Positions 9,006 through 36,681 of a stretch of DNA of 64,000 nt are shown here, piece after piece. The notes below the pieces were generated by a model. The model saw nothing but the letters and a program-made list of their open reading frames with translations, was not told where the DNA came from and did not search any database. Numbering within the stretch: position 1 is the stretch's first letter; each line of letters opens with the position of its first letter. Source of the stretch: Balneolaceae bacterium (lineage in GTDB: Bacteria > Bacteroidota > Rhodothermia > Balneolales > Balneolaceae); NCBI GenBank assembly GCA_034521495.1, contig JAXHMK010000009.1, positions 489,001 to 553,000 on the forward strand. Reading direction: 5' to 3'. Position numbers and translations under genes: made by a program.

Positions 9006-10052
9006 ATGAAATTGACAGATTTCAAATTTGAAATCGATGATTTTAATGTCCCTGAAGAACCAAAAGACCCAAGAGATGAGTCAAGGCTGATGGTCTTGAA
9101 TCGAGAGGATGAATCCATTAAACATGAAGAGTTTAAAGACATTCACAAACATTTTAATAAGGGTGATGTAATTGTTTATAACAATACAAAAGTATTCCCT
9201 GCAAAATTGAAGGGCAAGAAAGAGAAGACCGATGCGGATATCGAGGTTTTCCTTTTGAGAGAACTAATGCCGGAAAATATGCTCTGGGATGTTCTGGTTG
9301 AACCTGCCCGAAAAATTCGAATTGGCAATAAACTTTACTTCGGTGAAGATTTAATGGCAGAGGTAATTGATAATACGACCTCCAGAGGCAGAACTATTCG
9401 CTTTCTGTACGATGGTCCGAATGACGATCTGTATGACAGATTGGACGAGATCGGCGATATGCCACTGCCGCCATATATTGACAGAGAACCTAAAGAGAGC
9501 GACAAAGAAAGGTATCAAACCATTTTTGCGAAAGAACGGGGGGCAGTTGCTGCACCTGCCGCCGGAATGCATTTTACACACGAGTTAGTGGAAAAACTCG
9601 AGAAGAAAGGAGTAGAATTTCTTCCGGTAACCCTTCATATTGGATGGGGTACATTCCGCCCTGTTGAAGTGGAAGATCTTACCAAGCACAGAACAGACTC
9701 AGATAACTATTACATATCCAAGGAGACTTCAGACAGAATTAATGAAGCACTTTCCAGTAAGAAAAATAAAGTATATGCTTGTGGAACGTCGGCTGTTCGG
9801 GTTATTGAAACCAGTGTAATGGCAAGTGGTATGTCGAAGCCCGGAACCGGATGGACGGATAAATTTATCTATCCAGATTATGAGTTTAAAATTACTGAAG
9901 GTATTATAACCAATTTTCACAGACCCGAATCAACACTTTTGATGTTGGCTGCGGCTTTTGGCGGATTTGAATTCATCAAAAAAGCTTACAAGGAAGCTGT
10001 TGCTGAAGATTATCGGTTCTTTGCATTCGGGGATGCAATGTTGATCCAATAA
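9006..10052 (+). CDS. queA: S-adenosylmethionine:tRNA ribosyltransferase-isomerase
   Basis: QueA transfers and rearranges the ribose of SAM onto preQ1 in tRNA, giving epoxyqueuosine at the wobble base of GUN anticodons; it acts in the cytoplasm. The 348-residue length is typical. Family motifs are visible: RDESRLMVLNRE near the N terminus, VIVYNNTKVFPAKLKG, then GAVAAPAAGMHFT, VTLHIGWGTFRPV and the C-terminal ITNFHRPESTLLMLAAAFGG. The frame opens at a TTG at 9000, but the ATG two codons later is the more likely start. It is the first gene of a run with ispD, ispF and dedA, four bases before ispD. Confidence 0.97.
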   Translation: MKLTDFKFEIDDFNVPEEPKDPRDESRLMVLNREDESIKHEEFKDIHKHFNKGDVIVYNNTKVFPAKLKGKKEKTDADIEVFLLRELMPENMLWDVLVEPARKIRIGNKLYFGEDLMAEVIDNTTSRGRTIRFLYDGPNDDLYDRLDEIGDMPLPPYIDREPKESDKERYQTIFAKERGAVAAPAAGMHFTHELVEKLEKKGVEFLPVTLHIGWGTFRPVEVEDLTKHRTDSDNYYISKETSDRINEALSSKKNKVYACGTSAVRVIETSVMASGMSKPGTGWTDKFIYPDYEFKITEGIITNFHRPESTLLMLAAAFGGFEFIKKAYKEAVAEDYRFFAFGDAMLIQ

Positions 10053-10056
10053 AGCT

Positions 10057-10755
10057 GTGGCTAAACAACAACTTGCACTTATCATACCGGCTGCCGGGAA
10101 GGGTGAAAGACTCGGCGCCGAAATTCCAAAGCCTTATATAAAGGTAGCCGGTAAAACTATTCTTGAATATACACTTCTTAAATTCAGGGATGTTACAGGA
10201 TTAGGTGAAGTTATTGTTTCAACATCTATGCAGTACGTTGATACTACACAAGAAGTGCTTTCCCGTGTTTTTCCCGACTTGAATTATTCTGTGGTAGAAG
10301 GTGGAGAGGAGAGGCAGGATTCAATTCGAAATGCAATAGAAAAAATTTCAGACAAGACCGGTCTTATTGCTGTTCATGATGCGGTCCGTCCCTTTGTTAG
10401 TAAAGAAGAGATTGAAAACTGTGTGGAAGAAGCATCGCGGTCTGGTGGAGCTGTATTGGCTATTCCAGCTCGTGATACCATTAAAGTGGCTCGCCAAAAT
10501 CTTGAAATTGCAGAAACACCAAACCGGGAGAGATTATGGCAAGCTCAGACTCCGCAAGTTTTTTGGGCAGCTTTGCTCAGGGAGGCTTATCAATATGCGG
10601 CGGAGCACAAGTTTTTGGGTTCAGACGATTCCTCCCTTGTGGAAAAGATTGGCGGGAAGGTGGTACTTGTCAGAGGATCCAGTAAAAATTTCAAAATTAC
10701 CCACCCGTATGATTTGGATATGGCTCGCTATTTGATTGAGGAGGGAGCAGAGTGA
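10057..10755 (+). CDS. ispD: 2-C-methyl-D-erythritol 4-phosphate cytidylyltransferase
   Basis: IspD joins CTP to MEP in the non-mevalonate isoprenoid pathway. The 232 residues include the nucleotide-binding loop PAAGKGERLGAEIPKPYI (11-28), the GGEERQDSIRNAI motif, VHDAVRPFV and the C-terminal KITHPYDLDMARYLI. The start is GTG at 10057, four bases after queA. Its end overlaps the start of ispF in a GTGA junction, so the two enzymes of neighbouring pathway steps are translationally coupled; ispE is not in the window. Confidence 0.97.
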   Translation: MAKQQLALIIPAAGKGERLGAEIPKPYIKVAGKTILEYTLLKFRDVTGLGEVIVSTSMQYVDTTQEVLSRVFPDLNYSVVEGGEERQDSIRNAIEKISDKTGLIAVHDAVRPFVSKEEIENCVEEASRSGGAVLAIPARDTIKVARQNLEIAETPNRERLWQAQTPQVFWAALLREAYQYAAEHKFLGSDDSSLVEKIGGKVVLVRGSSKNFKITHPYDLDMARYLIEEGAE

Positions 10756-25741: not shown

Positions 25742-26401
25742 ATGAAATTTTTTATTGATACTGCCGATCTGAATGAAATTCAGGAAGCCAATGATCTTGG
25801 TGTTCTTGATGGAGTAACAACAAATCCCAGCCTTTGCCATAAAGTAGGAGTCAGTGATTTTGAAGGACATATCGCAAAAATTTGTGAGATTGTTGATGGT
25901 GATGTTTCCGCTGAGGTAATTTCAACCGAATATGATGAAATTATAGAAGAAGGAAGAAATATCGCCGAAATCGCGGATAATGTTGTTGTAAAAGTTCCCT
26001 TGATTAAAGACGGCATTAAAGCGATTAAAACATTTTCGGAAGAGGGCATTAAAACCAATTGTACACTTTGTTTTTCTGCTACTCAGGCTATGATTGCCGC
26101 TAAAGCAGGAGCCACTTACATCTCACCATTTATTGGCCGTGTGGACGATATTTCTAACGATGGAATGACAATTATTGAAGATATTGTTCAAATTTACGAC
26201 AACTATGGCTTTGAGACGGAGATTCTTGCAGCAAGTATTCGTCATCCAATGCATGTATTAGAAGCTGCAAAACTTGGTGCCGATGTTGCTACAATGCCGT
26301 TGAATGTGATTGAGCAATTACTCAAACATCCGCTTACAGATAACGGACTTGAGCGGTTTATCGCCGATTGGGAAAAACTTCAGGAAAGTTTGAAGAAGTA
26401 A
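25742..26401 (+). CDS. fsa: Fructose-6-phosphate aldolase / transaldolase-like (FSA/TalC family)
   Basis: The 219-residue TIM barrel opens with [14 protein letters not shown] and GVTTNPSL, typical of the short transaldolase family. The Schiff-base lysine is Lys84 in VVVKVPL, and FIGRVDDIS and ASIRHPMHV are conserved. Short family members are either fructose-6-phosphate aldolases or true transaldolases; sequence alone does not settle which. If it acts as transaldolase it would serve the non-oxidative pentose phosphate pathway, which fits the ribose salvage operon converging on it from the right. Confidence 0.93.
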
Positions 26402-26481: not shown

Positions 26482-27372
26482 TTATTGAATTCCGGTAATT
26501 TTCATATCTAATGTGTAAACGGCCGTACTGGCAGTTATGAACAGTGTTCTCATGTCAGCTCCGCCAAATGTTACATTGGCTGTCCAGTTTTGGGGAACAG
26601 GAATATGTTCAATCTGTTCTCCATTTTGATTGAAAACTGTGACACCATCGCCGGTTAAGTAGAGATTTCCCTCTTCATCCAGAGTCACTCCGTCGGATCC
26701 CATCTCAGTAAGCAGAGTTTTGTTTGATAAGGATCCGTCCCCCTCTATGGAATAAGAATAGGTTTTGCCATCTCCAATGTCTGCTACATAGAGAGTGTTA
26801 CCATCCGGAGTTCCAATAATACCGTTTGGCTGAACCAGATCATCAGCTACGATAATCAGATCCTCCCGATCAGGTGTGAGATAGTAAACCCGCTCTTCCT
26901 TGATCTCTTTTTCTGTATGATCCCAATATTCCCGCTGGTAATAAGGGTCGGTAAAATAGATGCCGCCTTTCGGATCCGGCCAGAGATCATTCGGTCCGTT
27001 GAGCCGTTTGCCATTATAATCGTCAACCAAAACTTCAACTTCCATATACGGTGTGATGGACCACAACTCATTTTCTTCATCAGCGCATGCAAGCAAATTA
27101 CCATTATCAGCAAAATAGAGTCCATTCGAGCGGCCCGATTCATCCATAAACTTATTCAACTCGCCCTCAACCGTGTAAATCCAGATGTCGTTATTGGGTT
27201 GATCGGTGAAGTAGACGTTTCCTTCACTGTCAGCCGCAGGTCCTTCTGTGAATGAGAATTGGTTGGATACCAGGTTAAGTTTTGCCCCGTCTGCAATGAC
27301 AGGGCTTTGGGCCTGGAGTGAAAAATTGACAATTAGAAAAAGTGCGAAAACGTAAAAAATTAATCGAACCAT
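26482..27372 (-). CDS. SMP-30/gluconolactonase family protein, secreted
   Basis: The 296-residue beta-propeller has a signal peptide (residues 1-21, ending SLQAQ) and repeats with FTEGPAADSEGNVYFTDQPN, RLNGPNDLWPDPKGGIYFTDP and LVQPNGIIGTPDGNTLYVAD. Family metal ligands are the early Glu of FTEGP, the Asn of GPNDL and the Asn/Asp of PNGI and SDGVTLD. Members hydrolyse sugar lactones. It is the last gene of the nucleoside/ribose salvage run, five bases after the ADP-ribosylglycohydrolase-like gene, so a sugar-lactone step outside the cytoplasm is likely but the substrate is unknown. Confidence 0.88.
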   Translation of the reverse strand: MVRLIFYVFALFLIVNFSLQAQSPVIADGAKLNLVSNQFSFTEGPAADSEGNVYFTDQPNNDIWIYTVEGELNKFMDESGRSNGLYFADNGNLLACADEENELWSITPYMEVEVLVDDYNGKRLNGPNDLWPDPKGGIYFTDPYYQREYWDHTEKEIKEERVYYLTPDREDLIIVADDLVQPNGIIGTPDGNTLYVADIGDGKTYSYSIEGDGSLSNKTLLTEMGSDGVTLDEEGNLYLTGDGVTVFNQNGEQIEHIPVPQNWTANVTFGGADMRTLFITASTAVYTLDMKITGIQ

Positions 27373-27376
27373 CTGT

Positions 27377-28786
27377 TTAATTATTTGTTGCTTGAGTGAT
27401 ATTTAATTCTCTATCAGGAATGTACCATACATTTTCGTCAAGGTCGATACCGCCATCCATCTGTTTCTGAACAGCTCGATCAACAATAAAAACTCCTTTC
27501 ACTGCCATATTTTCAAAGGTATCTATTCCATCATTTGGAAAATTCTGACGGGTTCTGTGAATATTATATTGATTTGCAAATCTTCGACCAAAAGCCTCTT
27601 CAACACCTTCTTTTCCAAGTATAAATCCCAGAAGTCCTGACCAGGTTGCAGTTGGGTTATCTGAATCCCAGCCGGTAAGTACACCAATTTTAATCGTTTC
27701 CTTGAGGTTGCCTTCTCCATAAAAAAGGCTGACTAAACTGGCTCCAAAATTTATCCCTGCCGCAAAGCATCCACTGCACGTCGGTTCGTTCGAAGAGATG
27801 GTATAACCGTCGGCTTCCTCAACCTGATACCGCTGATAAAGATTGTCTCTTGCTTCTTCCCAGGTTACACCAGATTCGTACTGTTTTAACACAAAATCAT
27901 ACATTTTTCGTGAATACGATTCTGTAGGTAAACGGTTGGATGCCTGATCTGCTAACCACATAACCTTCTCCTTCATGGACAGATTCTCATCAACCAGAGA
28001 TGCGAGAGAATGCATAATTACATAAAACTCAGATATCCATGCTGCGTTTTTGCGAGCCGTTGTTCGGATTGGGAGATGGCTCATTTCCAGGGCTACATCA
28101 GGACGGGCGGGAGCAAACAACCCAAATATTTCAGTTGTGAGCTGAGCATCAATCATTTCAAAATTTGGATTCAGCTCCGGGTCACTCGTGGCAGGTGGAA
28201 CTTTGCCTTCAATCATCAAATTAAGAGCTGTCTGGTTTGATACCCAGAGATAATTTTCCTCTTCATGCTTGATATGTTTCAGCCATCCTTCGCGGATCTG
28301 CTCACTGGTAAGAATACTCGTTTCATTTTCAAGCAGAAGATGTTGGTACATATATTCAATATCCGTGTCGTCATCGGCTCCCCATACGTCTCCTTCATCC
28401 CGAAATACAAAATCGATTGTTTCAGAAATATCACTTGGTTCGTCTGACCAAATATTGGGTTGATCCGGCTGCCCCCAATCGTCACGTGTATAAAATTCAC
28501 CGGTTTTAATTTCACCCGTATTCCCGATTTTATCCATCTCGGTTACCAAGCCTGTCCAGTTAGCAATATTTTGCGCCAGCCAGAATCCGTAGAGTTTATC
28601 GGCATATTCGGCTCTTGAAATGACAATATCCGATTCTTTGGGTTGATACTCTTCATATTCGAAATCCGGATTAACCATCGATGTAGCTGTTGAAGTCTGA
28701 TTTTCAGACTTATTCTGGTCACATGATGAGAATAGAAATAAACTCATTAACAAAAATAAGATTGTTCCTGAAGGTAGGTTTTTCAT
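27377..28786 (-). CDS. ADP-ribosylglycohydrolase-like lipoprotein
   Basis: The 469-residue protein has a lipoprotein signal with lipobox FSSC (lipidated Cys22), then the ADP-ribosyl-glycohydrolase fold. Metal-site motifs are visible as GADDDTDIEYMYQHL (about 117-131) and LTGWDSDNPTATWSG near residue 380, which correspond to the family's TDDT and DTD sites; the core residues TCSGCFAAGINFG precede the second. Intracellular relatives split ADP-ribose from proteins or other N-glycosides. Membrane export and its place between ribokinase and SMP-30 suggest a role in releasing ribose from nucleotide-like substrates in the periplasm or at the cell surface. The substrate is inferred, not shown. Confidence 0.85.
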   Translation of the reverse strand: MKNLPSGTILFLLMSLFLFSSCDQNKSENQTSTATSMVNPDFEYEEYQPKESDIVISRAEYADKLYGFWLAQNIANWTGLVTEMDKIGNTGEIKTGEFYTRDDWGQPDQPNIWSDEPSDISETIDFVFRDEGDVWGADDDTDIEYMYQHLLLENETSILTSEQIREGWLKHIKHEEENYLWVSNQTALNLMIEGKVPPATSDPELNPNFEMIDAQLTTEIFGLFAPARPDVALEMSHLPIRTTARKNAAWISEFYVIMHSLASLVDENLSMKEKVMWLADQASNRLPTESYSRKMYDFVLKQYESGVTWEEARDNLYQRYQVEEADGYTISSNEPTCSGCFAAGINFGASLVSLFYGEGNLKETIKIGVLTGWDSDNPTATWSGLLGFILGKEGVEEAFGRRFANQYNIHRTRQNFPNDGIDTFENMAVKGVFIVDRAVQKQMDGGIDLDENVWYIPDRELNITQATNN

Positions 28787-28800
28787 ATCTGTATCGTACT

Positions 28801-29724
28801 CTAATTAGAAGTCTCAGAGATAAAATTCTGAATCTCTTTTTGATTTGGAATAGACGGCTGAGCTCCCATTCTTGTAACAGAAAGAGCAGCCGCTGCATGT
28901 GCCCAAATAATCGCGTCCTCAATTGATTTTCCAAGTGATACACCAACTGCAAGTGCTCCATTAAAAGTATCACCCGCCGCAGTGGTATCCTCTGCGTTGA
29001 CTTTAAAACCGGGAATTGTTTTTTGAATGGTTTCACTCATCACAAAAGCTCCTTCAGATCCAAGGGTAAGGATTACTGTCTTAACTCCTCTTGAAAGAAG
29101 CTTTTCAGAAGCCTTTTTGGCAGAACTTTCATCCTCAACTCTAATACCAGTCAAAAGTTCGGCTTCTGATTGGTTGGGAGTAAGGATGTCAATTCGCTTG
29201 AGAAGGTCGTCACTCAGGGGTTGAGCCGGTGCAGGATTCAGAATCACTTTAACATTATGTTTATTGGCAATTTTAATCGCTTGTTCAATGGTTTCAAGAG
29301 GTGTTTCGAGTTGAGCTAAAAGGATATTCCCATCGGCTATAACAGGCTCTGTTTTACCTATTTGTGATGGAGTCAACGTTCCATTCGCACCTGACGCTAC
29401 GGCAATGCTGTTCTCACCATCTTCACCTACAAAAATAAGCGCTACGCCAGATGGAGTCTCCTCATCAACAAAAATGCTTTCCGTATTGACGCCCTCTTTT
29501 TGGAATCCTTCAATGGCTTCTTTTCCAAAGTTGTCGTTCCCGGTGTTGGCGATAAACGTCACATTTCCGCCACTTCTCGCAGCAGCTACAGCCTGATTAG
29601 CTCCTTTTCCCCCGGCTGCTTTCACGAATTTTCCGCCAAGAATGGTCTCGCCCGGTGCAGGAATTCTGGGCACTTTTACGATCATATCCGTATTGGAACT
29701 ACCGACGACAATTATTTTGCTCAT
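28801..29724 (-). CDS. rbsK: Ribokinase
   Basis: The 307-residue PfkB-fold kinase has the N-terminal SSNTDMIVKVPRIPAPGETI, the substrate loop GGKGANQAVAAARSGG (about 38-53), and the C-terminal AAGDTFNGALAVGVSLG with the catalytic Asp of GDTFNG. Ribokinase makes ribose-5-phosphate in the cytoplasm. It precedes the ADP-ribosylglycohydrolase-like gene by 14 bases and follows the sugar transporter after a gap that holds a 73-bp palindrome. Confidence 0.95.
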   Translation of the reverse strand: MSKIIVVGSSNTDMIVKVPRIPAPGETILGGKFVKAAGGKGANQAVAAARSGGNVTFIANTGNDNFGKEAIEGFQKEGVNTESIFVDEETPSGVALIFVGEDGENSIAVASGANGTLTPSQIGKTEPVIADGNILLAQLETPLETIEQAIKIANKHNVKVILNPAPAQPLSDDLLKRIDILTPNQSEAELLTGIRVEDESSAKKASEKLLSRGVKTVILTLGSEGAFVMSETIQKTIPGFKVNAEDTTAAGDTFNGALAVGVSLGKSIEDAIIWAHAAAALSVTRMGAQPSIPNQKEIQNFISETSN

Positions 29725-29750
29725 GGTTTTTTATAGATCATTATTGTACG

Positions 29751-29823
29751 GTCATTCTGAGTTTAACTCAGAATCTCCTATCGTAATTTAGGTTTGGGGA
29801 TTCTGAATCAAGTTCAGAATGAC
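29751..29823. repeat. 73-bp palindromic element, GTCATTCTGA family (copy 1)
   Basis: The left arm GTCATTCTGAGTTTAACTCA runs on to AGAATCTCC; the right arm is its imperfect inverted copy, ending GTTCAGAATGAC at 29823. Related elements stand at 39839-39912 and 46600-46678. It lies between the ribokinase and the transporter genes. Confidence 0.8.
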
Positions 29824-29856
29824 TCATTCATAGTTTTTTGGCCCAAACTGTATTCA

Positions 29857-30864
29857 TTAAGCAACTCTCGCATATATCAAAAGTCCCAGTCCAACTAAAA
29901 AGAATAAGAACATGAATGTCAGTAGTGTATTGGTTCCTTTGGGTGCATCTTTAAATTCTTTCCAGATGAAGACTCCCCAGATGGCCGCGACCATGGTAGC
30001 TCCTTGTCCAAGTCCGTAAGAGATTGCATCGCCAGCCACTTCGGAAGTATAGTTTGATAAAACCATTCCGATACACCAGATGGCTCCGCCCAGCAGGCCC
30101 ACGAGATGTCGTTTTGTATTTCCATCCGAGAAGTATTGAGAATATTTCACCTTATCACCGGAAAACGGTTTGGCCATCGCCCAGCTGTTCCAGATAAAAT
30201 TGGAGAGAAAAAGACCAATGGAGAAGACAAACACAGCGGCGAAGGGTTCCATTTTACCGACCTCCGGATTGCTGAAATCAACGGCAATGGCAACCTGTAC
30301 GAGGTAGAAAAAGAGTCCCATCAATAAACCACCCACAATTGATACCACAATTCCTTTCGTGGATGTGCTCGAATCTTGTTGCGGAAGGCGGCGGTATGCA
30401 ACGGCATCAATGATAATGGCGATGGTTACAAGTGTAACGCCGGAAAAAATCAAAACAGCGTTTCCGGTAGGGTCAGCAATATAGTTGATGATTGTACCCT
30501 CAACCAGGGCAATGCCAATTCCGATTGGAAAAGCAATAGCCATACCGGCAATATCAATAGCGGCTACGATTAAAATATTTGCCAGGTTAAATACCACTCC
30601 GCCAAGCATTGCAAAGAGAATTGCGTAGGCTGAGGCTTGAAGAAGATCTTCGGTAAAACCTCGCCCAACGGTTCCCAGACTTCCAATGGTGAGGCCAAAG
30701 AGCAGAGCCATAAGAATAATTCCCAGCGAATAATCCCAGTAGAAGAGTTGAAATGGCCATTTATCACCACTGACGAGTTTTTGGGTATTCGCCCAGGAAC
30801 CCCAGCTTAACATTGTAATTACCAAGAGAAAAACAGCGAGTGGGTAGGATTCTAAGCCAATCAT
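29857..30864 (-). CDS. GRP family sugar transporter (DMT superfamily)
   Basis: The 335-residue protein has ten membrane helices, an opening of MLSWGSWANTQKL that is typical of glucose/ribose-type GRP carriers, and GLGQGATMVAAIWGVFIWKEF near the end. Such carriers move sugars across the inner membrane, driven by proton or sodium. The neighbours (nucleoside hydrolase upstream, ribokinase downstream) make free ribose the likely substrate. It stands 133 bases after ribokinase in transcription order reversed, and 140 bases after the nucleoside hydrolase, with hairpins in both gaps. Confidence 0.85.
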   Translation of the reverse strand: MIGLESYPLAVFLLVITMLSWGSWANTQKLVSGDKWPFQLFYWDYSLGIILMALLFGLTIGSLGTVGRGFTEDLLQASAYAILFAMLGGVVFNLANILIVAAIDIAGMAIAFPIGIGIALVEGTIINYIADPTGNAVLIFSGVTLVTIAIIIDAVAYRRLPQQDSSTSTKGIVVSIVGGLLMGLFFYLVQVAIAVDFSNPEVGKMEPFAAVFVFSIGLFLSNFIWNSWAMAKPFSGDKVKYSQYFSDGNTKRHLVGLLGGAIWCIGMVLSNYTSEVAGDAISYGLGQGATMVAAIWGVFIWKEFKDAPKGTNTLLTFMFLFFLVGLGLLIYARVA

Positions 30865-30912
30865 GTTGGTAGTTTTTGTTAGTTGTTAAGAATCCCATTC
30901 GAAGGGCGAATC

Positions 30913-30979
30913 GAGGGGGATGTTCTCTCACATCGCGCCAACATCCCTCTGAGTTTTTCAAGAACTTGTTGAAAAACTC
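30913..30979. repeat. Two hairpins in the gap between nucleoside hydrolase and transporter
   Basis: GAGGGGGATGT (30913-30923) pairs with ACATCCCTC (30941-30949) with one bulge. GAGTTTTTCAA (30951-30961) pairs perfectly with TTGAAAAACTC (30969-30979). They could process or stabilise the operon message, or stop part of it after the nucleoside hydrolase gene. Confidence 0.6.
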
Positions 30980-31004
30980 TGTCTCACTTCAAAGGGAGAT
31001 TTTT

Positions 31005-32021
31005 TCATTCACTCCTCATCGTAGAATAAAAATCTTCGAGAATCGCTTCCTTATCAAAGTTTTCCCAGATGGTGATGGATCGGTCATTGTTGGGCCGTTC
31101 CTGCCAATCTTCTCCATCTACGATTGGTGCAGGAATCTCTGTTGCTTCTCCCCAATTCGGATTCTTTAAAATAGCCACAGCAACCATATCAAACAGTGCC
31201 CGCGATGGCGGATCTCCGTGCAGGTCAATTTCTGAAAATAGGTTTACCGAGTAATCACCAAAGTTAGTGAATTCACCACCGTGGCGACCAGTTACAGGGT
31301 CCACCTCAGGACCGGCACCAGGCATGTTTTTTTCAATTTCGGCAGGAGTTGCACGGACCGCGTCAGATCCGCTCGGTTCTCCATATCGAACCATTACAAT
31401 TTCAAAAGGGACTTCTTGGTTCAGAATGTAATTGAGTGCCGGAATATCGTTTTCCTGGTTGTATTCACCGGGCTCAGGATAATTCGAACCCAACCAAACA
31501 ATCCGAACATTTTCTTTGATGTCCGGCGCTTTTTCCAGGGCAAGTGCAATGTTAGTCAGCTTACCAACCGGTAACAAAACAAGCTTTTGACCTCTCGGTT
31601 TTCGAGCTTCTTCAATAATAAACTCCACAGCGGCATGTCCGTCATACTCAGGTTGATCCAGCGTTGGCCGAATATCTTCAAAATCTTCATTAGCTCCGGG
31701 TAGCAGTGGAATTTGCCCCATCACATCAGTCAACTTCATCACGCGTTCAGCTTCTGCCACCTGTTGGTCAATAGCACCTCCGCTATAGGTTGCATTCACT
31801 GTAACACCAATCGTGTTAAACAGATCTTCGTTAAAAAACAGATAAGCCATCGCATGCTGATCATCCAGTTCATTATTGGCATCCGTATCAAGTATAATTG
31901 GAATCAGGTCGTTCTGCTCATTTTCCGTTGGAGCGTTTTGTTGAGCAGTTTCTGTATCATTTTGTTGTGAACAATTAGCAAAAAACAACAGGCAGGTACA
32001 AATTATCAGATAATGCTTCAT
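31005..32021 (-). CDS. Nucleoside hydrolase, secreted lipoprotein
   Basis: The 338-residue protein has a lipoprotein signal (lipidated Cys17 in FANC) followed by a nucleoside hydrolase fold. The calcium-binding N-terminal motif DTDANNELDDQ (about 45-55) is the family hallmark, and EIVMVRYG and FDMVAVAIL fit the C-terminal part. It would split nucleosides into base and ribose outside the cytoplasm. It is the first gene of the salvage unit: hydrolase, sugar transporter, ribokinase, ADP-ribosylglycohydrolase-like protein, SMP-30. Confidence 0.93.
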   Translation of the reverse strand: MKHYLIICTCLLFFANCSQQNDTETAQQNAPTENEQNDLIPIILDTDANNELDDQHAMAYLFFNEDLFNTIGVTVNATYSGGAIDQQVAEAERVMKLTDVMGQIPLLPGANEDFEDIRPTLDQPEYDGHAAVEFIIEEARKPRGQKLVLLPVGKLTNIALALEKAPDIKENVRIVWLGSNYPEPGEYNQENDIPALNYILNQEVPFEIVMVRYGEPSGSDAVRATPAEIEKNMPGAGPEVDPVTGRHGGEFTNFGDYSVNLFSEIDLHGDPPSRALFDMVAVAILKNPNWGEATEIPAPIVDGEDWQERPNNDRSITIWENFDKEAILEDFYSTMRSE

Positions 32022-32132: not shown

Positions 32133-32885
32133 TCATCGGCTCAAACTTTTCCGTTCTTCAAATACTTCACCCGGAATAACAGCACCAGCGGAGTTCCCAA
32201 AACTATTTCTGATATAGGTAAGAATATCCGCTACTTCCTGATCTGTTAATTGCTGAAAAGCCGGCATCTCCTGGTTATAGATTTCACCGTTTACTTCAAT
32301 AGGTTCAGAAAGTCCAAGAAGCAGTGTTCGTATCAAACGTCCTTTATCACCGGTAACCCATTCAGTGTTGGCAAGCGGAGGATACATATCTGCAGAGCCC
32401 TGGCCTTCCGGTCCATGACAAACCTGGCAATGCCTGACATACAACGTTTGTCCCGTTGCAAATTCCTGCTCATCCACCGGGTGATTCCAGTTTTCACTCA
32501 ATAGATCGATTGGTTCGGTGTTTTCTTCCAGAACGGGGAGTGATGGGGCGATCTCTACGCCATCCTGAAGAGCTCTGATTCGAATAATTCGATCGCCACC
32601 CTCTGGTAGTTGATCGTACATCCAGGGTTGAAATCTGGGATGCCAGTCGGTATTGCTGGTGCTAAAATAGATGCTGCCGTCGGGAGCTGTAGAAACATCT
32701 CGAATCCGCCCAAACTCTTTCTGAAAATAGATATGTTCTTCTGTAATCTCCTGCCCGTCATCACTCAAATTCAAAAAACGTAGTGCCCTGCCTTTCATGT
32801 TTGCAGCAATTAAACTTTGTTCCCACTCGGGAATGGATGAGTCATTAAAATAAGCCAACCCTGAAATCGCAATCGTGGGAGTCCA
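32133..32885 (-). pseudogene. 3' half of frameshifted PQQ sugar dehydrogenase: propeller end and cytochrome c
   Basis: This frame continues the beta-propeller (GLAYFNDSSIPEW, then FGRIRDVSTAPDGSIYFSTSN) and ends in a class I cytochrome c domain (about 80 residues) with the haem motif CQVCH and the distal Met in MPAFQQL. It has no proper start: the upstream part is in another frame. Deleting one base (position 32886, T on the plus strand) restores RWTPTIAISGLAYF across the junction. Either the gene is broken or the assembly has an indel. Intact proteins of this kind oxidise sugars in the periplasm and hand electrons to the attached cytochrome. Confidence 0.8.
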
Positions 32886-33732
32886 TGCGATTAAGTGGTT
32901 CTTCTATTTGATATTCGGCACAATAGTTTTGTTCAAAGTCCTCATCACAAAAACCGTGAACATCCGGCCAGCCGTAATTTCCGTTTTTCTTTATCAGGTT
33001 GATTTCGTCATCGTTGTTGGGACCGTGTTCAGTACTGTAGAACAGTCCGTCATCAGAGAAAGCCAATCCCTGTGGATTTCGATGACCCCGCGACCAGATC
33101 GGGCTGCCGGGAATGGGATTATCGTCGGGAATCGATCCATCCAGATTCAAACGAAGGATTTTTCCGACCAGGATTGAATCACTTTGTGTTTGATCCGGCC
33201 GTCCCGCATCTCCCATCGAGAAAAAGAGTTTCTTATCAGGAGAAATAATCAATCTGGAACCGTTGTGGTAGGTGTTACCGGGAATACTATCCAGTAAAAT
33301 TTCAGGGTTGATGAGTGTATCACCCTCAAAAGAATATCGAACAATTCGGGATTGAACTTCCTGTTGAAGATCATCTTCATTGGATTGAAACGTGTAGTGC
33401 AGGAAAACGGATGATTCATCAGGATGAACGGCCATACCGAGTAAACCATATGATTTTTTGTAGAGCAGATCGGGAATTTGAAGAACTTCGGCTTGTTCAA
33501 GTGTCTCGAGGTTCAAGCGATAGACAGAACCACTCTGTTCCGTAAACCAAAGTTTTCCGGCGATGGACGCATCCACATCCCAGGGTACACCGAGGCTGTC
33601 GGCTACTTCTTCAACAATTAAAGAGGAATTTTCCAGTTCGAGGTAGGCGAGAGGTTTGGCTTTATTTGAATCGTTTTGGTTACATGAAATGGCGAAAAAT
33701 CCGACCAAAAAGAAAAGAGAAATATATTTCAA
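32845..33732 (-). pseudogene. 5' half of frameshifted PQQ-dependent sugar dehydrogenase lipoprotein
   Basis: The frame of 295 residues starts with a lipoprotein signal (lipobox FAISC) and runs through the glucose/sorbosone dehydrogenase propeller: WDVDASIAGKLWFTEQSG, TYHNGSRLIIS, GHRNPQGLAFS and STEHGPNNDDEINLI. After EEPLNRM it leaves the family sequence and ends in a short unrelated tail (HDCDFRVGLF), because of an extra base near 32886. The rest of the domain lies in the next frame downstream. The two halves share about 14 bases. PQQ enzymes of this family oxidise aldoses; the substrate is unknown. Confidence 0.82.
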
Positions 33733-33793
33733 AACAGTTGGATTAATTAGTAAGCTGATAAAAATATGAGGAAGAATAGATGATTTACAAAAA

Positions 33794-33827
33794 AGATCCG
33801 CGAAGTTTTCAAAAACTTCGCGGATCT
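33794..33827 (-). terminator. Terminator after the VOC gene, CCGCGAAGTTTT stem
   Basis: Sixteen perfectly paired bases (AGATCCGCGAAGTTTT and its complement) with a two-base loop end in a T run when read leftward. It begins 12 bases after the VOC gene stop. The stem is the same as the second terminator of rpoC. Confidence 0.75.
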
Positions 33828-33838
33828 AAAAACGAGTC

Positions 33839-34336
33839 TCAATCCAATTCACTCAGCAAATCTTTCAAATCCAGCGGACGGGTGTACATCTGCAGCGAAC
33901 CATCCTCTTTTTGAGGCCACTGATCTTTAGGGCGATCCCAATACAATTCCACGCCGTTTTGATCTGGATCATTCAGATAAAGAGCTTCGGAAACACCATG
34001 GTCGGAAGCACCCGTCAGTGGATATTCTTCTTCACGTAACCGTTGGAAAATAGCTGCTAAATCTTTTCGGGTTGGATATAAAATGGCGGTATGAAAGAGT
34101 CCGGCAGAATTTCGAGGAGCAGGCGGACCGTTTTTGCTGTGCCATGTATTCAACCCGATATGATGATGGTATCCGCCCGCTGAAATGAAAGCCGCGTCCG
34201 TTCCGTACATGGTCATCAGTTCAAACCCAAGAAGTCCGCAGTAAAAATCGAGTGAGCGCTGGATGTCCGAGACTTTCAGGTGAACGTGTCCGATGCGTGT
34301 TTGAACCGGGATTTTATAGTCTGCTTGTGAAGGCAT
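33839..34336 (-). CDS. VOC family protein (glyoxalase/extradiol dioxygenase-like)
   Basis: The 165-residue protein has two beta-alpha-beta-beta-beta units: RIGHVHLKVSDIQRSLDFYCG with the first metal His, and LFHTAILYPTRKDLAAIFQ with a second His; the final ELYWDRPKDQW supplies the Glu ligand. The arrangement fits CatE-like dioxygenases or similar metal-dependent members. The reaction cannot be assigned. It stands alone before a terminator on the minus strand. Confidence 0.85.
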   Translation of the reverse strand: MPSQADYKIPVQTRIGHVHLKVSDIQRSLDFYCGLLGFELMTMYGTDAAFISAGGYHHHIGLNTWHSKNGPPAPRNSAGLFHTAILYPTRKDLAAIFQRLREEEYPLTGASDHGVSEALYLNDPDQNGVELYWDRPKDQWPQKEDGSLQMYTRPLDLKDLLSELD

Positions 34337-34417
34337 TTGAATGTGAACGATTAATTTATTTTAGGATAAGTAAAAAAGAATCAACTTCCTATGTTCAGGA
34401 GTGGCAAGGGAAGGTAC

Positions 34418-34462
34418 AAATCTCCCCTTGAGGGGAGTGCGACTTTAGTCGCGAGGGGTGTT
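34418..34462. repeat. CCCTTGAGGGG repeat, copy 1
   Basis: AAATCTCCCCTTGAGGGGAG, then an inner palindrome GCGACTTTAGTCGC, then GAGGGGTGTT. The inverted copy at 46923-46969 shares both flanks but has a different middle. The gap between the VOC and DUF1801 genes (180 bases) holds no gene. Confidence 0.65.
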
Positions 34463-34515
34463 ATCCCCCTTTGTGTTTGACACTTTCCTTCTTCAACTTG
34501 CAAATTTTTAAACAT

Positions 34516-34935
34516 TTAAACACCCAACATCGGCAGATGTTTAATTTTGTGATACGTTAAGGCCAGTGAAATACAATGCTTTAATTCCAGCTCTGGAATG
34601 TCGTCCGACAAATCAAAAACAATCGCCCGGTTTCCTTCAAATTTGAGTTTGCTACTATACAGTTTCCTGAATGTATCGACCAGGCTTGTTGTACAGGTGA
34701 AATACATGGCATATTGATCCGGCTGCTTTTTCTTCCAATCAATGCGAACTGTACTTCCGGTTTTTGTTGTATAGCTTGGCTCACTCCAACTGAGAGTTTC
34801 TTCCAGATTGTTCACAATTTCTGATTCGTCTGCTGTATCCAGAATCAATTGACGCAGATGCATCATTTTTGGGCGAACATGATCCGGGTAGGTATTGAAT
34901 ACATCAGCAACTTTTTGGCTTTTAAATGACGTCAT
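34516..34935 (-). CDS. DUF1801 domain-containing protein
   Basis: The 139-residue protein matches DUF1801 (YdhG-like): RPKMMHLRQLILDTA near the start, LSWSEPSYTTKTGSTVRI in the middle, then the MYFTCTTSLVDTF segment and a C-terminal helix. Members resemble small iron chaperone frataxin-like folds; the function is uncertain. The gene stands by itself; the 180-base gap on its upstream side (34936-35112) holds palindromes. Confidence 0.85.
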   Translation of the reverse strand: MTSFKSQKVADVFNTYPDHVRPKMMHLRQLILDTADESEIVNNLEETLSWSEPSYTTKTGSTVRIDWKKKQPDQYAMYFTCTTSLVDTFRKLYSSKLKFEGNRAIVFDLSDDIPELELKHCISLALTYHKIKHLPMLGV

Positions 34936-34993
34936 TTTCAGTATGAATTTTAAATGGTCTGAGCGTCCCTCGCGTGGAAATTAAAATAAGAGA

Positions 34994-35017
34994 GCACAAG
35001 CGAGACGCTTGCGCTAT
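34994..35017. repeat. GCACAAGCGAGACGCTTGCGCTAT palindrome, copy 1
   Basis: An imperfect palindrome in the gap between the DUF1801 and M81 genes. A damaged copy in the other direction lies at about 34963-34977, and an inverted copy at 35074-35098. Confidence 0.8.
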
Positions 35018-35073
35018 CAAAGGTTTTTAAGATTGAATTCCCTCTCTACCATGTTGGACAACTTTTTTCCTGG

Positions 35074-35098
35074 ATGGCGCGAGCGTCTCGCTCGTGCC
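35074..35098. repeat. Inverted copy of the GCGAGACGC palindrome, copy 2
   Basis: ATGGCGCGAGCGTCTCGCTC continues to GTGCC. It lies 15 bases downstream of the M81 gene stop and 57 bases from copy 1 in inverted orientation. Confidence 0.8.
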
Positions 35099-35112
35099 CC
35101 TTTTTCTATTGC

Positions 35113-36681
35113 TTATTCAATTTCATCCGATGCCGGAATTAATCTCGCGGAGAGATCCGGGTCTTCCATATCTTCATCAAAGGGAAACATAGGTCGTTGG
35201 ATTCGTTCATACTCCAGCCGGTGCAGATCCTGATCAACACCACCCGGAGTCAATGCCATAATCCAGTCCTCTCTCATCTCATACAGTTCCGGAACCAGGT
35301 ATCCGATTTTCACGACCACAATATCCGTTTCGCGCGGATTCAATCCCAAATTCGTAAAATCACTTTCCTGGTGATACGGTTTTCGTTTTTTGGTGACAAT
35401 CACATTCACACTTCCAATTTTCACGACCACTTCCGTTTCGGCGTCTTCATCGCCGTGTTCAATTGCAGTGATCTCTCCTTCAAGCAAAATAGGAGGGGAG
35501 TAACGATCGTCAACCCGGGCACCTGCATATTCACTAACCGTACCACCGACTCCGGCTTCAACAGCGGCTTCAATAAAATCAGGACCGGGAATAGAAGCGT
35601 ATATCAATGACGGACCATCCTCTGTCTGAAACTCAGGTCGTTCCAGGATTTGTCTGATGGTCCAGGTTACATCCCCTGCGCCGCCAGCCGTGGGATTATC
35701 ACCCATATCACTGATGATAAACGGTTGAACATCGCTTTCAATCGCCATATCCAAACTTTCTTCGAGTGAGGCGGTTGGAGCGATAAACTCAAACTCATTT
35801 CGTACATCCCAGAAACTTTGTGCCAGCATTTCGGCGGAGCTGGTTACGGCTTCTCTGTTATCTCCCGTAACCATCACAACGGCATGATTTCTTGGTTCAT
35901 CCGCCCATGGATAGCCCACCCAAATGGCGGCGTCAATCACTCCTTCTTTTTCTGTTACCGGATCCACTTTTGCATACAGGCTTTTCGCGGGTTCTACTCT
36001 CGTACTTGTTTTTTCACCGGGCAGTAAAATGGGAACAGGAACCCATGCCTTGTATTCTGGCTTACCTTTGCCGTTTTCGAGCCGGGTGAGCAGATTTCTT
36101 ACAGCTCGTTCTTTGGATTCAAGGGCATCTTCGTGAGGAGCCATCCGGTAACAGGTAATCAGATCAGAATGACCGGCTAATCTCCGGGATACATTTCCGT
36201 GCAGATCCATCGAGGTTGAAATAAGTGTTTCCGTTCCCACAACCTCACGAACCCGTTTGATGAAATCTCCTTCAGGATCATCAATTCCCTGCACGCTCAT
36301 CGCGCCGTGGATATCAAAAAAGAGTCCGTCGTACGGCAGGTTTTCACGGAGGCGATCCAGCGTTTCTGTAACCAGTGATTCATACGCTTCACGGGTCACA
36401 ATTCCACCGGGAATGGAATGTCCGCGAAGTGTTGGGAACCACTGAGCGCGCTCGCGGAGGTCATCGCCTTCATCCATAAACGGGTAGTAGGAAAAAACTT
36501 CGTCGCCATATCGTGCTTTAAAAGCTTCTTCATGCGTTACAGCTGGCGAAAACGTACTCGATTCAATCGCAATTCCGGCGATAGCTATTCTGGGAAGGTC
36601 TGCATTTTCTTCAGATGAGCCGCAAGAGATCGTTGTGAGAAAAAGAAGAGAAACGAAGAGAGATAAAACTGCTTTATTCAT
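35113..36681 (-). CDS. M81 family metallopeptidase (MlrC-like) lipoprotein
   Basis: The 522-residue protein has a lipoprotein signal (lipidated Cys20 in TTISC) and an MlrC-type fold: IAGIAIESSTFSP, then SIPGGIVTREAYE, the zinc-site stretches FDIHGAMSVQG (about 129-139) and SMDLHGNVSRR, and MAPHEDALESKERAV. A C-terminal MlrC_C domain follows with VGGTVSEYAGARV and the TEVVVKIGSVNVIVTKKRKPY region. The family is named after the microcystin-degrading enzyme, but most members act on other peptides; no toxin substrate is implied here. It would sit in the outer membrane or periplasm. Confidence 0.88.
   Translation of the reverse strand: MNKAVLSLFVSLLFLTTISCGSSEENADLPRIAIAGIAIESSTFSPAVTHEEAFKARYGDEVFSYYPFMDEGDDLRERAQWFPTLRGHSIPGGIVTREAYESLVTETLDRLRENLPYDGLFFDIHGAMSVQGIDDPEGDFIKRVREVVGTETLISTSMDLHGNVSRRLAGHSDLITCYRMAPHEDALESKERAVRNLLTRLENGKGKPEYKAWVPVPILLPGEKTSTRVEPAKSLYAKVDPVTEKEGVIDAAIWVGYPWADEPRNHAVVMVTGDNREAVTSSAEMLAQSFWDVRNEFEFIAPTASLEESLDMAIESDVQPFIISDMGDNPTAGGAGDVTWTIRQILERPEFQTEDGPSLIYASIPGPDFIEAAVEAGVGGTVSEYAGARVDDRYSPPILLEGEITAIEHGDEDAETEVVVKIGSVNVIVTKKRKPYHQESDFTNLGLNPRETDIVVVKIGYLVPELYEMREDWIMALTPGGVDQDLHRLEYERIQRPMFPFDEDMEDPDLSARLIPASDEIE

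Follow-up and report, generated by a model that had tools for sequence, protein, structure and literature searches.

A candidate Rus-like ribose-scavenging gene cluster with an exported ADP-ribosylglycohydrolase-family lipoprotein in a Balneolaceae bacterium

The gene cluster

We describe a gene cluster of a Balneolaceae bacterium (assembly GCA_034521495.1) whose genome is Rhodohalobacter-like. The cluster lies in a stretch of 64,000 nucleotides (the window; contig JAXHMK010000009.1, positions 489,001 to 553,000), where five consecutive minus-strand open reading frames (ORFs) span positions 26482-32021, exactly as the initial annotation of this DNA had placed them (Table 1). We consider it fairly probable that these genes form a Rus-like system, in which exported hydrolases free ribose, a carrier imports it and a kinase traps it by making ribose-5-phosphate. 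Such a system is already known as Rus, the ribose-utilisation system of gut Bacteroides, and the initial annotation overlooked the known Rus system of Bacteroides thetaiotaomicron; what is unusual here is the exported member resembling an ADP-ribosylglycohydrolase (ARH). The proposal builds on the gene families and their order, on metal-site residues that are kept, on export-type N-termini and on the recurrent clustering with genes of the BT2802 family.

Table 1. Genes of the cluster, followed by typed flanking genes (positions in the window)
Feature	Position	Strand	Length and matches
Nucleoside-hydrolase-like protein, exported, lipoprotein-like N-terminus, DxDx5DD (predicted export)	31005..32021	-	338 aa; IU_nuc_hydro PF01156, 75.6 bits
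Inner-membrane carrier, DMT/GRP kind, RusT-like by context	29857..30864	-	335 aa; Ureide_permease PF07168, Sugar_transport PF06800
Ribokinase	28801..29724	-	307 aa; PfkB, 245 bits; NCBIfam NF008353
ARH-family lipoprotein (predicted)	27377..28786	-	469 aa; PF03747
Secreted SMP-30/gluconolactonase-like protein	26482..27372	-	296 aa; SGL, 136 bits
Small transaldolase/fructose-6-phosphate aldolase	25742..26401	+	fsa_talC_mipB, 310.7 bits
Pyrroloquinoline quinone-dependent sugar dehydrogenase with cytochrome c tail, split	32133..33732	-	GSDH
M81/MlrC-family protein	35113..36681	-	DUF1485, MlrC_C

Pfam and NCBIfam models agree with all five families that had been named, with one reservation: the carrier, annotated as a GRP sugar carrier, has Ureide_permease as its best match (80.4 bits) and the GRP family Sugar_transport as its second (40.9 bits), both above their cut-offs. 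A simple scan finds eight hydrophobic segments in it. The ribokinase passes the test of NF008353 (393.7 bits against a cut-off of 341), and the ARH matches ADP_ribosyl_GH PF03747 with 75.5 bits against a cut-off of 26.2, being the one PF03747 gene of a genome that is 97.38% complete. In transcription order, the genes are separated by 140, 132, 14 and 4 bp. Scans for promoters and terminators were discarded because they found fewer sites than in shuffled sequences.

Both hydrolases had been called exported, and both indeed carry export-type N-termini, which predict export and not placement at the surface. Lipoprotein N-termini were called with a home-made lipobox rule, not SignalP. Of 8 nucleoside hydrolases of the same type as the window's, the rule is positive for 6 (the FANC box of the window's protein has an unusual residue at -1), and of 96 ARH ORFs scoring at least 450 bits, for 83; among the controls it calls none of 14 ribokinases, none of 3 SGL proteins and one of 17 carriers, a false call. 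Some of the 13 rule-negative ARHs have a plain signal-like N-terminus and some a start that is cut or misplaced, and in two (loci L013 and L117; L, G and C numbers are our handles for loci, genomes and contigs) the Cys is present but overlooked by the rule.

Recurrence of the carrier cassette

Among 392 genomes of the phylum, 13 encode a carrier homologue, one of them being the window's own; the class of G296 contributes 13 of 396, and 7 genomes belong to both sets. This gives a carrier-centred set of 20 loci in 18 genomes other than the window's. Ribokinase lies within the same small cluster as the carrier in 15 of the 20 loci; the other five (L099, L103, L104, L133 and L134) have no partner family beside the carrier, and in L104 (genome G292) about 9.4 kb separate it from a nucleoside hydrolase. 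Nine of the 15 carrier-kinase cassettes include an ARH (L012, L096, L097, L101, L102, L128, L129, L131 and L132), and in four of these nine it sits between carrier and kinase (L096, L097, L101 and L132). Nucleoside hydrolases, found in six (L012, L093, L094, L100, L101 and L130), are of two types, the window's differing from those of L100, L101 and L130, which are BT2802-type loci. The latter three are weak with our own profile (18-24 bits); the nucleoside hydrolases of G209 and G383 are above the Pfam cut-off, as is a second copy in L130. Altogether, 14 of the 15 cassettes include an ARH, a nucleoside hydrolase or both, counting the nucleoside hydrolase of L095, which is truncated at the contig start and below the cut-off; L098 has neither.

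The association of ARH and carrier is far above chance. The 12 carrier genomes hold 11 PF03747 genes, with a broken pair of fragments in G010 taken as one gene, and 5 of these lie less than 10 kb from a carrier, against 0.05 expected, roughly 100 times chance. The Poisson P is about 2e-9, or 1.6e-7 with four genes when the same-genus genome is set aside, both figures ignoring kinship.

The fifth gene is less constant. Only the window and R. sulfatireducens (L012; L092 is the same species and was counted once) have an SMP-30-like gene immediately next to the ARH, and L069 has a further SGL copy four ORFs from its ARH. Co-occurrence of all five families in other genomes, which had been suggested as a check, was found in R. 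sulfatireducens only, and a widely conserved five-gene order is thus rejected.

A reduced relative of Rus

A gene of about 500 aa adjoins the cassette in 9 of the 15 loci and matches the NCBIfam model 'BT2802 family ribose utilization protein', with 676.5 bits in L101 (cut-off 550) and 410 bits in L128; two of the nine pass NCBI's strict cut-off. Matches to this family number up to 8 per genome (G501, L131), several of them partial, and the family is therefore not restricted to the ribose cassette. L130 also encodes a TonB receptor and a SusD protein, and L102 has a similar pair.

In B. thetaiotaomicron, Rus is the polysaccharide utilisation locus BT2803-2809, with RusT as the proposed ribose transporter, according to passages of PMC12596196; its genes are listed in a passage of PMC10434189 as ribokinase, TonB receptor, SusD, DUF4969 protein, nucleoside hydrolase and DMT permease. 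The window resembles Rus in having ribokinase and nucleoside hydrolase in one cluster with a DMT-type permease that may correspond to RusT, and relatives of its carrier and kinase provide a further link by adjoining BT2802-family genes in the nine cassettes. The likeness of the carrier to RusT is one of context, not of sequence comparison: carriers homologous to the window's occur in BT2802-family loci. Unlike Rus, the window belongs to a genome without a BT2802-family match, and no SusC/SusD pair (TonB receptor and SusD) was found among the five cluster genes and five typed neighbours (one gene at 25742-26401 and, on the other side, four ORFs within 32133-36681), a search that covered these ten genes and not the whole genome. 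Also unlike the Rus gene list, the cluster includes an exported ARH. ARH-type enzymes in Rus variants are reportedly mentioned by Glowacki and colleagues (2020). Clustering with kinase, ARH and BT2802-family genes argues that the window cluster is, as judged from gene content, a reduced relative of Rus; we write 'Rus-like' and not 'Rus' because some of the defining parts were not found.

Given its best Pfam match to Ureide_permease (80.4 against 40.9 bits), the carrier might instead move a base, a nucleoside or a ureide, with the kinase acting on ribose freed inside the cell. We regard this as improbable, because both hydrolases have export-type N-termini and because homologous carriers lie in BT2802-family clusters, RusT itself being the proposed ribose transporter (PMC12596196, in the passage cited above).

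The exported ADP-ribosylglycohydrolase

The window ARH has the acidic metal-site pattern of its family (Glu, Asp-Asp, Asp-x-Asp): every one of 94 close and 9 distant ARHs keeps E83, D139, D140, D374 and D376. We take these to be the metal-binding and catalytic positions of ARH3 and DraG. PF03747 and the acidic metal-site positions are shared with the cytosolic DraG, ARH1 and ARH3; unlike them, the window ARH has an export-type N-terminus. Searches of solved structures with the ARH alone (phmmer) and with a 52-row profile gave chance matches only, and the fold assignment therefore rests on the Pfam match and the motif.

Two ARH subfamilies, 22-28% identical in local alignments, occur in ribose cassettes. 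The window's subfamily is found in L012, L128, L129 and L131, and in L017, L065 and L082 of an ARH-centred set described below; the second is found in L096, L097, L101, L102 and L132. On a tree of the window's subfamily, ribose context needs four changes against a mean of 6.8 in shuffles, with four groups (window and L012; L017; L082; L128, L129 and L131), and a tree that includes distant ARHs gives five changes against a shuffled mean of 7.8. Many inner branches are weak, and gains are indistinguishable from losses. The trees take ORFs of at least 400 aa and thus omit the ARH of L065, which is split over two ORFs and counted in the tally of loci below. The subfamily tree leaves out the nine distant ARHs and adds L128, L129 and L131, and the ARH of L132 is in neither tree.

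The family name and the kept metal-site residues would also suit an enzyme that strips cell-surface or periplasmic proteins of ADP-ribose, in signalling or defence, with its neighbours disposing of the released ADP-ribose. This is highly improbable: there is no ADP-ribosyltransferase among ten typed neighbour proteins or among the best 25 of 135 neighbour families, and export together with the kinase and carrier context fits catabolism better.

A comparable arrangement exists in the yegTUV genes of Escherichia coli K-12, where a carrier, an ARH (YegU) and a sugar kinase (YegV) adjoin; the likeness is one of gene arrangement. YegT is a putative transporter predicted to belong to the major facilitator superfamily, unlike the window carrier. 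To our knowledge, YegU has not been described as exported. In PMC10819704, yegTUV is linked to ADP-glucose and glycogen and not to ribose, which calls for caution in reading 'ribose' from the ARH name alone.

We recognised no paper describing an exported catabolic ARH among the openly available papers listed for ARHs and for ribose systems, as judged from the listings and the opening lines of abstracts. A passage of PMC10434189 describes an ADP-ribosylglycohydrolase-family gene after hmuY in an iron-regulated hemin-uptake locus of Prevotella intermedia.

Evidence against a dedicated ribose pathway

Seen from the ARH, the association looks quite different. Our ARH-centred set comprises 80 named loci with close relatives of the window ARH (excluding L001-L011 and the own-genome copy L127), and counts on it use only matches above 100 bits with our own profiles, so that the weaker nucleoside-hydrolase type is uncounted. 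Carrier and kinase lie less than 5 kb from the ARH in 4 of the 80 (L012, L017, L065 and L082); within the same distance, two loci have a nucleoside hydrolase alone (L018, L019) and one an SGL gene alone. A tie of close ARH relatives to ribose genes is rejected on the four in 80, and the ARH is therefore not dedicated to a ribose pathway. It looks recruited to ribose salvage, as a recurrent accessory. The initial annotation's salvage reading thus stands in part: ribokinase, nucleoside hydrolase, ARH and BT2802-family genes do recur in clusters around the carrier, and some ARH homologues do adjoin ribose genes, a complete lack of which it had named as refuting, but among close relatives these are few.

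A number of observations weigh against the reading that we favour. In 73 of the 80 loci, the 5 kb to either side of the ARH are free of the other four families, and the same holds for 47 of the 51 loci with more than 4 kb on both sides (three of the 51 have carrier and kinase). Of the 392 phylum genomes, 25 others have an ARH match, and only in G015, of the same genus as the window's genome, and in G383 is it less than 10 kb from a carrier. Elsewhere the ARH adjoins genes of the ThuA, beta-lactamase-like, GyrI-like, Exo_endo_phos, GH3 and other families. In G032, of the same family, hydrolase, carrier and kinase stand together with no ARH seen adjoining, and likewise in G010, of the same genus, on a 6.7-kb contig. 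The genome of the window, nearly complete as it is, has no BT2802-family match, and the gaps of 132-140 bp leave space for separate promoters. Finally, the Asp motif of the window's nucleoside hydrolase reads DxDx5DD and not DxDxxxDD, the N-terminal hallmark given in PMC3608555. This form, two residues longer, is present in 11 of 11 aligned nucleoside hydrolases of both types, which keep the four acidic residues of the motif; the window's protein has the acidic residues D45, D47, D53, D54 and D278. The same paper reports undetectable hydrolase activity in a protein with another altered Asp motif; thus, activity of the window hydrolase is not to be presumed.

The neighbour survey took 138 of 147 operon neighbours to a Pfam tally, omitting nine (the SGL genes of L003 and L012, the ribokinase of L012 and six short or end pieces). 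Among the best 25 of 135 families, ThuA is commonest (6), followed by beta-lactamase-like, GyrI-like, Cass2 and Exo_endo_phos (5 each), GH3 (4), and PfkB and nucleoside hydrolase (3 each). In Eudoraea, the close ARH relative is preceded by a gene for a TIM-barrel protein like xylose isomerase and by a ThuA gene (L015, L020, L048), and in Neomarinimicrobiota by a GH3 glycosidase (L021, L035, L036, L073); these upstream genes were typed in L015 and L021 and assigned by clustering in the other loci. In L126 (G165), the ORFs that follow a distant ARH at 9236-10549 include, four positions on, a ribokinase-like piece of 97 aa. In G010 the ARH is broken by a contig end (contigs C201 and C231), and its C-terminal piece is followed some 4.4 kb further on by a second nucleoside hydrolase, apart from the carrier cassette.

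Such figures suit a plain nucleoside/ribose salvage set with the ARH as passenger: the enzyme would be an exported glycosidase in broad use whose target is another sugar conjugate. This explanation, which we hold unlikely while taking it seriously, gains from the scarcity of carrier and kinase near close relatives, from the variety of contexts (GH3, ThuA, xylose-isomerase-like, SASA and Exo_endo_phos among them) and from G032, whose cassette and ARH are on separate contigs. It does not account well for the two ARH subfamilies in nine of 15 cassettes, four times between carrier and kinase, nor for an ARH-carrier proximity far above chance. The Rus-like reading is most open to doubt on one point, any action of the ARH on ribosyl compounds, because the enzyme mostly occurs without ribose genes.

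Flanking genes

The transaldolase-like gene faces the cluster and would suit pentose-phosphate use. R. sulfatireducens has an ORF of equal length (219 aa) two ORFs further off. On the other side, the sugar dehydrogenase is split over two overlapping ORFs in different frames, as if frame-shifted; it was dropped as a sixth cluster member, neither part matching any of the 18 ORFs of L012. The M81/MlrC-family protein has a lipoprotein-like N-terminus by eye and scores far below the cut-off of the NCBIfam microcystinase MlrC model.

Discussion

Activity, substrate, ribose transport, direction of flow and transcription as an operon are what we infer for the Rus-like cluster. The nucleoside-hydrolase-like and ARH-family lipoproteins would split N- or O-ribosyl bonds outside the cytoplasm, in the extracellular space or the periplasm, with nucleosides and possibly ADP-ribose or NAD breakdown products as substrates. 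The DMT/GRP carrier would then move free ribose across the inner membrane, and ribokinase would convert it to ribose-5-phosphate for the pentose phosphate pathway.

It is quite possible, if somewhat short of probable, that the two ARH subfamilies are extracytoplasmic general ribosidases, repeatedly recruited to ribose scavenging. They would then form a catabolic branch of the ARH family, acting on substrates beyond those of nucleoside hydrolases, such as ADP-ribose, NAD fragments or modified nucleosides.

If ARH lipoproteins do release ribose beyond the cytoplasm, a family known as the one that reverses ADP-ribosylation would also feed bacteria, and an exported protein labelled 'ADP-ribosylglycohydrolase' in Bacteroidota or Balneolota ought not to be taken for a signalling enzyme. 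Rus-type scavenging would then extend to Balneolota, in a form with neither a nearby SusC/SusD pair nor a BT2802 protein.

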